Below, piece after piece: positions 54,490-57,400 of a stretch of 64,000 nt of DNA; the first letter of the stretch is position 1; every line of letters starts with the position of its first letter. A program made the translations under genes and the position numbers. Source of the stretch: an uncultured Dongia sp. (GTDB taxonomy: Bacteria > Pseudomonadota > Alphaproteobacteria > Dongiales > Dongiaceae). The notes below the pieces were generated by a model. It was not told the DNA's origin, did not search any database, and worked only from the letters and a program-made list of their open reading frames with translations. The stretch is from contig NZ_CAKZGO010000024.1 in the NCBI RefSeq assembly GCF_936916975.1, positions 62,001 to 126,000 on the forward strand. The letters run 5' to 3'.

Positions 54490-57400
54490 ATGGCCACCGA
54501 CACCACCAGCATTCAGTCCGATTCCGCCACCAGCTCCGTTGTCCAAGAGGGCGATGTCGAGCAGGGGCAATTGACCCAATCCGGCAATGCACCGGTTCCA
54601 GTGCAGATCCCGCAGGGCGAGAACGTGGTGCGGGTGCAGGTCACGCCGGGCGAAACGATCCAGCTGCCGTTTCCCGCCGATGGGCTGATTGCGCGCCTCG
54701 GCGATAACGGCAACCTCGCCGTCAAGGTCGGCGATGTGACCGTCATCCTGCTGGGCTATGCCGAGGCGACCGGCCAGGCCGACATCACCATCATCGGTTC
54801 CGACGGGCAACAGGTCGACGTTGCCGCCGTGCTGGCCGCAACCGATCCCAATATCGACATTCAGACCGCCGCTGGTCCCGGCGCCGGCGACCAGGGTACC
54901 GGCGTCGACAACAATGGCGGCGTCTTTTCGCCGTTCGACCCCGCCAGCGGCCTGGGTGGCCTCAACGCCGTGGGCGGTCTCGACCCGACCGGCCTCAATT
55001 ACAACCTCGTCGGCCGCGAATTTCCCGAACTGATCGAGGATGACGAGGAACCCGACACCGCCCCGCTGCTGATCAATATCCGCCAAGGCGCCGTCATCAA
55101 CGAAGACGATCTGGGCCTTGGTCGCCCAGAACTGCAGAAGTTGGCGCCCGACGAAGATTATCAGTATCAAGGCCAGATCGGCGGCGAACTCGCGCAGAGC
55201 CTCGGCATTGCTGGCGCCTATACCGGCGGCACCCCAGGTCAGGGCAACGATCCCCTCGATCTCGACGACCACGACCTCGACAACAATCCGGGTGATCCGC
55301 CCGCCAGTGACGACAATGGCCAGGGCGTCGATATCGACCGCGAGCCGCTGACCAGCACCGCCGTGGTGACGGTCAACTTCAGCGGCGACGTGCCGGGCAA
55401 GATCAGCTTCCAGAACGGCGCTGATATTCCGGTGCAGACGCAGCTTGAGGCGATGCACCTGACCTCGCATGGTCATGAGCTGCAGTACAAGTTGCTGCCG
55501 GCCGTCGGTGACAATCCCGGCACGATCGGTGTTGATGAAAGCCATGGCGAAGTGCTGGTCGCCTACTATGTTGAAGAGGGCACGCAATGGGTCCAGGATC
55601 CGGAGACCCAAGAATGGAGTGAAGTCGCAGCCCAATACGCCACGATCGTCTTCTCGATCGGCGTGCGCGAACAGCAGGGCGATACCGGTATCAGCGAGTT
55701 CAACCTCGACTTCACCATCTATGGCGTCGTCGATAATGTCGCTGGCACACCGGATGCCATCGGTGACATTGCCGATGTGCTCGACATCGACGTGCCGTTC
55801 TTCATGGTCGATTCAGATGGCTCCGTCACACCAAGCCCGGGCGATGCGCTCACCTACCATGTCGTCGACGACGTGCCGTCATTCGGCGCCACGGAGTGGG
55901 CGTTGGTGGGCGGCGAGGGCAATAGCGAGGGTACCTGGCAGCAGGTCATTAAGCCGGCCGATACCAGCATCACGCTTGATGAAACCGACGGCCTCGATGG
56001 TGACAGCGATGACGTCGATGCCAACGTCACCAATATCCTCGCTAAGGCGGGTTGGGATTCCCTGACGGCGCTGGGCGCCGCCAAGACGGACGTCGTGGTG
56101 AGTTTCGGCGCCGATGGCCCGGCTCTCGGCAATAACGAAGCCGGCAAGACCCTCTTCCAGGGGGATGACGACGATTGGTCCAACACCGACCCCAATTCTG
56201 AAGCCTTTCAATTGTTCGTCGCGGGCGGTACCGTCGAGCGCGGCGCCACCAATTGGACTATCACGGATGCTGAGGGCAACGTGCTGGTCGTCCACGCGCT
56301 GCAGATCGATGCCAATACCATCGTCGGCTATGCCAATCCCAACGATCCGGACGGCGATGGCATCATCATCGGCGAGGACGCGCCCAACCCCAACAGCCCA
56401 GGCAGCATTCCGGTCTTCGTTCTCAACATCGATCCGCAGACCGGCGAGCTCACGCTGGTACAGCTGCACCAGATCAATCATGGCGACACCAGCAACAACG
56501 ACGAATCCTCGCCGTCGCTGGTGATCTATAGTCCCGGTGAAAGCGACATCGTCGCCAGCGACGATTTTGATTCGCTTGCCAATTGGTCCGTGCTTGATGG
56601 CGGCTCGGCCAGCATTGTCGGCGATATCGGGACGACCGATCCGCAACCCAACCCGAGCAATCAGGCACTGCTTCTGGCAGCCAACGATGTGCCCGGTGAA
56701 AGCGGCGACGGTTCTTCGCTGGAATCGATCGAAAACTTCTTTGGTCTGCCCGCCGGCACGCTTGCCACGACCGCCAATGATGGCGATGCCGGCAACGATG
56801 TCGAAGTGCCGACCGACGGCACGGCGATCAAGCAGACTTTCGAGGTCGCGGCGGGCAACCAGCTCACCGTCAAGTTCAACTTTCTCGAAGATGAAAGTGA
56901 CGGTGCCTCTCCGAGCTTCCAGGATTTCGCCTTCATCGTCGTCGGTGACCATGTCTTCCGTCTCAGCAATGTTTCGCTGGCGAATATTTCTTCCGATGCG
57001 GGTGTCGGCAGTCTCAGCTGGGATGAAGAATCCGGCTATCTGACCTTTACCTTCACCTTCGCTCAAGATGGGCCGGTTCAGATCGGCTTCGGCGTGATGA
57101 ACGAAGGCGATACCGACGTCGATCCGGCCTTGCTGATCGATAGCCTGGCCATCACCGATGGCGCCAGCCAACCCAATCCGGTCTATGTCGCCGGCACCGA
57201 TTTTGACGGCGATCAAGTCACTGCACCCCTTGATGTCACGATCCAGGATGACGGCCCCACGGCGACCATCGTTATTTCCAAGACCGACACACTGCTGCTC
57301 GATGAAACGGAGCGCCAGAGAGGCGATGGCATTGCCTCGGTGACGGCCGATTTCGGCGACAACTTCAATGCCGGCGCGCTCGATTTCGGCACTGATGGCC

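Follow-up and report, generated by a model that had tools for sequence, protein, structure and literature searches.

A putative LapG/DvhG-type cleavage site in a giant adhesin of Dongiales and a DvhD-type receptor encoded beside lapG

The TAAG motif near the end of the N-terminal module of a giant T1SS adhesin from Dongiales is, judging from the sequences, probably a LapG/DvhG-type cut site, with release of the adhesin likely to be under the control of a DvhD-type receptor. This reading draws on the motif and its conservation, the family and catalytic residues of the protease, the families of the exporter and the receptor, and the adjacency of the receptor and protease genes in 16 of 17 genomes. 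To our knowledge, how T1SS adhesins are held and released in Alphaproteobacteria is largely unexplained: members of the class own LapG-type proteases, yet strong LapD matches in our phylum sample fell outside the class, and the DvhD-type receptor beside lapG (16/17 Dongiales; 38/71 frames of a class sample) offers a receptor that can be tested. If the reading is right, this protease and site are served by at least two kinds of receptor: LapD, and a second that is not restricted to sulfate reducers.

The adhesin gene overruns the end of the window (the whole stretch of DNA analysed, 64,000 nucleotides); its stop lies at window-scale position 71526 on the same contig, for a full length of 5678 aa. 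Translation from the ATG begins MATDTTSIQ...DGQQVDVAAVLAATDPNIDIQTAAGPGAGDQGTGVDNNGG and reads ...DVAAVLAATDPNIDIQTAAGPGAGDQG... in the motif region. The repeats match TIGR03660 (T1SS_rpt_143, 3e-38, eight stretches; NCBIfam search) and PF19116 (DUF5801, 1.5e-46, five stretches; Pfam search), and the C-terminal 1179 aa, outside the window, match VWA_2 (1.6e-8) and HemolysinCabind (RTX repeats, 1.9e-9). By eye the N-terminal module looks rich in beta structure between about residues 46 and 106. It had no NCBIfam match at E <= 10 and in Pfam matched just PF13464, below the cut-off, with no match to a known retention-module family; its profile gave weak matches alone among solved structures, the best at 0.0058 (scIg12, dIG14-scdim-EF62 and a capsid stabilizing protein). 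Given this lack of a family match, the alternative retention domain suggested in the earlier note is plausible. The features are collected in the table.

Features of the adhesin gene within the window (window positions; residues numbered from the initial Met)
Feature	Positions	Strand	Remarks
Giant T1SS adhesin gene, first 3170 codons	54490..63999	+	Start is ATG at 54490
N-terminal retention-like module, residues 1-118	54490..54843	+	Alignment A1; presumed plug
Candidate targeting helix VDVAAVLAAT, residues 109-118	54814..54843	+	Placed by analogy with the LapG substrate consensus (PMC13090378)
DP turn, residues 119-120	54844..54849	+	LapG substrate consensus; in 22/30 A1 rows
Putative cleavage motif TAAG, residues 126-129	54865..54876	+	AAG 30/30, T 29/30
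Gly-rich segment and conserved 'F-PF-P-GLGGLNAVGGLDPT-L-Y', residues 130-176	54877..55017	+	Directly after the predicted cut site

The translation confirms TAAG at residues 126-129 (bases 54865-54876), near the end of the module and behind a DP at 119-120, all as claimed in the earlier note, and the arrangement fits the published consensus for LapG protease substrates, a helix, then DP, then [T/A/P]AAG (PMC13090378). The cut is predicted between A127 and A128, a position taken from LapA, which after cleavage starts AGPSAAG by Edman sequencing (PMC3032545), and residues 130-176 are a candidate for the start of the channel-spanning part. TAAG arose in 1.75% of 2000 shuffles of adhesin residues 1-185, and a DP with [TAP]AAG after a gap of 2-8 residues in 0.05% of the same shuffles; the 5678-aa adhesin has two TAAG and a single DP-x(2-8)-[TAP]AAG, the latter at residues 119-129.

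Conservation is a stronger test of the motif than shuffling. The order is represented here by the 17 genomes of the collection that belong to one family, called Dongiales by inference; 13 of them have the module. Among its 44 rows from the order, 42 reach the motif, which is TAAG in 41 and VAAG in one (rows L063 and L070 end at contig ends, at or before the motif, and row L071 looks frameshifted). In alignment A1 (30 module rows from 12 genomes, with 27-81% identity to the window's copy and a mean column identity of 42%) AAG is present in every row and the preceding T in all except one; the DP is less constant, being absent from eight rows. Invariant columns are V51, L59, P60, G89, A127, A128, G129, G157, G162 and T167. 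The 22 named loci with this module come from Dongia mobilis, Dongia deserti, metagenome genomes or strains of Rhodospirillaceae and Rhodospirillum, and metagenome genomes labelled proteobacterial, which points to a Dongia-like alphaproteobacterium as the host. At one locus of the order (L062, G006:C13:1530000-1534500) the module and TAAG head two proteins of only 561 and 576 aa, as read, that bear collagen-like GPTGETG or PEPTPTPE repeats.

Because the motif is embedded in a conserved stretch some 55 residues long in A1, its conservation could instead serve the fold or passage through the channel, with the LapG-type proteases having other targets. We consider this rather unlikely, even though BTLCPs serve other processes in Alphaproteobacteria (PMC4241560) and four genomes of the order (G001, G012, G015 and G016) have LapG and the receptor with no such module at E <= 0.001. 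Against it stand the recurrence of [T/P]AAG in diverged modules and of TAAG in an unlike module, the co-occurrence of the module with LapG, and the clustering of exporter, lapG and receptor genes elsewhere, each of which is described below.

Outside the order, the module profile matched nine genomes of a class sample (13 of 289 in all), which carry eight family labels. [T/P]AAG closes the module in seven of them (G017, G079, G116, G182, G247, G251 and G271), the first letter varying as the consensus permits (PMC13090378). Homologues lacking AAG, which according to the earlier note would speak against the site, were not seen in the order, and at this distance two genomes of the nine (G094 and G146) have modules without [TAP]AAG. 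Since the motif is itself part of the module profile, its 12 columns were masked as a control: nine of the 12 distant stretches still matched at 0.0014 or better (E for about one genome), L256 dropped to 0.91, and L252 (G251) and L255 (G271) were missed by the local profile, masked or unmasked. Masking lowered the scores of the ten stretches found from 18.6-50.5 to 10.2-41.4 bits. The module of G251, missed by the local profile, was placed by the coordinates of the class-sample search.

In the window's genome the module occurs at five loci, all with TAAG, and a sixth TAAG protein (C21:55898) is headed by a second, unlike N-terminal module (MAQLVKIG...ANFETAAG). TAAG is present in all five copies of this second module examined in Dongiales, four of which start MAQL or MAQR; the modules end in NFQTAAG, AFQTAAG, NFQTAAG and DFKTAAG, and in the window's genome in NFETAAG.

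LapG homologues, which the earlier note proposed to look for, are present in triplicate. PF06035 matches at four places in the window's genome (C4, C20, C12 and C23), and the C4, C20 and C23 proteins are LapG-like, with an N terminus resembling a signal peptide by eye. The fourth gene (L007, C12:63236-63673) is diverged and lies among genes that look phage- or plasmid-like by eye, and was set aside. The C20 protein matched 4fgo (2.5e-23) and 4u65 (9.8e-22), the LapG structures of L. pneumophila and P. fluorescens, respectively (PMC13090378, PMC4359373), and its Cys (GDCEDYA), His (GHAVLIV) and Asp (LLLDNQ) align with the LapG triad. By sequence, the adhesin would belong to the LapG/BTLCP substrate class and the C20 protein to the protease class. 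PF06035 matched in all 17 Dongiales genomes, and in the class sample in 80 of 289 genomes, including all 13 with the module; outside the order it was found in 9/9 module genomes versus 76/285 overall (hypergeometric 4.7e-6, uncorrected for kinship).

A lapBCE-type exporter, which the earlier note likewise proposed to look for, is represented by a LapB/LssB-type gene (TIGR03375, 923.8 bits against a cut-off of 693.1; C21:15550-17655) that maps close to a sister adhesin and does not adjoin the adhesin of the window. Near a sister adhesin and this exporter, a 1052-aa GGDEF/EAL protein is encoded (G000:C21:32619-35777), which by eye is CHASE2-like. No exporter gene was seen by eye adjoining the adhesin gene of the window, which is unlinked to protease or exporter genes in its genome. 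With the adhesin gene far from those for protease, receptor and exporter, the system would act in trans, on the five adhesins with this module and the one with the second.

LapD itself did not turn up, so that the refuting condition given in the earlier note, a genome with no LapG/LapD homologue, applies in its LapD half. The model of the LapD periplasmic domain, PF16448, had no match in the window's genome, and as this search had no positive control it was repeated over 398 genomes of the phylum. There, 111 matched. Every match stronger than 1e-20 lay outside the class, the open frames being mostly some 640-700 aa long; within the class 21 genomes matched, all weakly (3.4e-10 or worse), and G006, another Dongiales genome, had no match. 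Nor did any of the ten EAL loci in the window's genome have the LapD layout when read by eye. These results argue against a canonical Lap circuit, in which LapG is held by LapD (a PAS-like periplasmic domain, HAMP and a degenerate GGDEF-EAL), and we regard it as very improbable here despite the presence of LapG and of the LapB/LssB exporter. LapD-like genes have been reported in some T1SS clusters of Bradyrhizobium and Mesorhizobium (PMC7730722), and we therefore do not claim that LapD is absent from the class.

A stand-in for LapD might be sought in the soluble protein with a degenerate EAL domain (EAL 8e-6, below the cut-off) encoded just downstream of lapG (L009, G000:C20:195053-196279), whose gene adjoins lapG in the same orientation in 15 of the 17 Dongiales and, within the class sample, in G225 and G116. 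However, no membrane helix or other membrane part was visible by eye, which puts a periplasmic protease beyond its reach, and its relatives, found in 90 of 289 class genomes, are mostly away from lapG, lying beside one in just six by coordinates. We rejected this candidate, whose chances appear slimmer still than those of the canonical circuit.

The receptor paired with lapG in Dongiales is of the DvhD type. It is a membrane protein of ~706 aa (L107) in which two hydrophobic stretches flank ~295 residues and are followed by PAS and HD-GYP regions, and it was found in all 17 Dongiales, full-length or nearly so (the G007 copy is cut at residue 629). By coordinates its gene is adjacent to and divergent from a lapG in 16 of them, and in the seventeenth, the window's genome, a contig break splits the pair, with lapG at the end of C20 and the receptor gene at the start of C43 in fitting orientation. 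Its best solved relative is 9rc0 (1.1e-45 for the G006 copy, 1.3e-43 for that of the window's genome), followed by 9rbz (2.2e-37); both are DvhD of Desulfovibrio vulgaris, where DvhD stands in for LapD (PMC13090378). In the periplasmic part the matches are weak: dCache_1 matched three of the four copies scanned (3.1e-4 to 1.4e-5, below the Pfam cut-off) and not the fourth, and neither of the two Dongiales copies tried matched 9rc2, the solved periplasmic domain of DvhD. The HD motif is lost, reading L/M-N in all 17 Dongiales copies, and H-D is present in none of the 37 readable copies among 38 other receptors; DvhD, which has SQ at this position, binds without cutting (PMC13090378). Read from the alignment, the DvhD contacts L577, M646, R650 and P567 are kept in the Dongiales receptor and K582, Y652, Y523 and K520 are changed conservatively; Y621, E668 and R569, which contact the nucleotide in DvhD, are lost.

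In the window's genome the first codons of the receptor gene are replaced by 148 bases of 34% GC (the next 600 bases have 62%) that hold an in-frame TAG stop (L118 1-148, start of G000:C43). The stretch is either a mobile element or an assembly fault; with its 5' end so altered, the gene may no longer give a working receptor in this strain. This speaks for an alternative in which LapG cuts TAAG and is regulated otherwise, by transcription, by calcium or through one of the two unlinked LapG paralogues. Such regulation is a minor possibility, if a better one than conservation of the motif for folding or channel passage: two of the three LapG-type genes in the genome, those on C4 and C23, have no adjoining DvhD-type receptor, and a BTLCP can be governed by its level, as HvyA is in Caulobacter (PMC4241560). 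Against this alternative, 16 of 17 related genomes retain the pair of receptor and protease genes, and the lapG of the pair is the sole PF06035 match in 12 of the 17.

Under DvhD-type control, the adhesin would be exported by the LapB/LssB-type T1SS, and its N-terminal module would fold in the periplasm and jam in the outer-membrane channel, holding the adhesin on the cell. At high c-di-GMP the inner-membrane receptor, with a presumed dCache-like periplasmic region, PAS and degenerate HD-GYP, would bind the nucleotide and restrain the protease; as c-di-GMP falls, the protease would cut between the two alanines and the adhesin would leave. In this way one chromosomal receptor-protease locus may act in trans on several adhesins, whose N-terminal modules are of at least two unlike kinds.

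By these assignments the Dongiales set is not a Lap system as defined by LapD, and is a Dvh system in its receptor type, as judged by PAS and HD-GYP. It shares with the system of Desulfovibrio vulgaris (the adhesins DvhA/DVU1545, with DvhG and DvhD) a BTLCP protease, a membrane receptor with PAS and degenerate HD-GYP that matches 9rc0/9rbz in sequence, and a giant T1SS adhesin with an N-terminal module, [T/A/P]AAG and, as in DvhA, a VWA domain (PMC13090378). It differs in its alphaproteobacterial host, in the N-terminal module, in a receptor of a diverged subfamily whose gene is divergent from lapG and away from the adhesin and exporter genes, and in a protease that, judged by eye, probably has a signal peptide instead of a membrane helix. 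With the Lap system of Pseudomonas fluorescens (LapA, LapG, LapD and LapBCE) it has in common a giant repeat adhesin in which AAG is followed by P, a LapG family protease and a LapB/LssB-type exporter, whereas LapD was not found in the window's genome, the genes are scattered and the module is not recognised by known models. HvyA of Caulobacter is likewise a periplasmic BTLCP of an alphaproteobacterium but acts on capsulation and is controlled by abundance, and the available text on it mentions no link to an adhesin or receptor (PMC4241560). In the open-licence literature we found no report of DvhD/DvhG-type control, of LapG with HD-GYP and dCache, or of a Dongia adhesin, and the word 'alphaproteobacteria' does not appear in the main text of the report on the Dvh system (PMC13090378).

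Pairs of lapG and receptor genes also occur in other Alphaproteobacteria. We took 100 stretches around the PF06035 places of the class sample outside the order, leaving out 12 rows that were all 2.1e-9 or worse, and scored LapG-like frames with a two-sequence Dongia profile, taking those below 1e-20 as strong. Of 98 such frames, 71 were strong and 27 weak. A DvhD-like frame lay within 1.5 kb of 38 strong frames (25 divergent, 11 same-strand and 2 convergent) and of no weak one; the remaining 33 strong frames had no receptor in the stretch, some being near contig ends and most not. Among the distant genomes with the module, six of nine (G017, G079, G116, G146, G182 and G271) have a receptor beside a lapG, and in G094, G247 and G251 none adjoins the lapG fetched.

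Some of the same-strand receptors are more closely related to DvhD: that of L152 matched 9rc0 at 9.4e-80 and 9rc2 at 2.4e-31, and 9rc2 was matched by the operon-type receptor of L204 as well. Four stretches (L152, L154, L183 and L204) each carry a row of genes for an LssB-type ABC protein (927 to 983 bits against a cut-off of 693.1), an HlyD-like protein, LapG and the receptor, in this order; model searches of these clusters confirmed HlyD in L183 only and TolC in L154 only. L204 opens with an adhesin N terminus that ends IEPAAGPQSG and so contains PAAG. It is quite possible, and we advance it tentatively, that many Alphaproteobacteria share a DvhDG-type c-di-GMP switch for surface adhesins. 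In it, a conserved chromosomal locus that pairs lapG with a receptor of another subfamily than DvhD would act in trans as a general sheddase for many giant adhesins (six TAAG proteins in the window's genome) bearing at least two unlike retention modules. Three stretches (L182, L183 and L186, from G182, G278 and G056) each contain a divergent and a same-strand lapG-receptor pair in a span of ~12 kb, and the paired receptors of these genomes differ clearly in their score to the Dongiales receptor profile.
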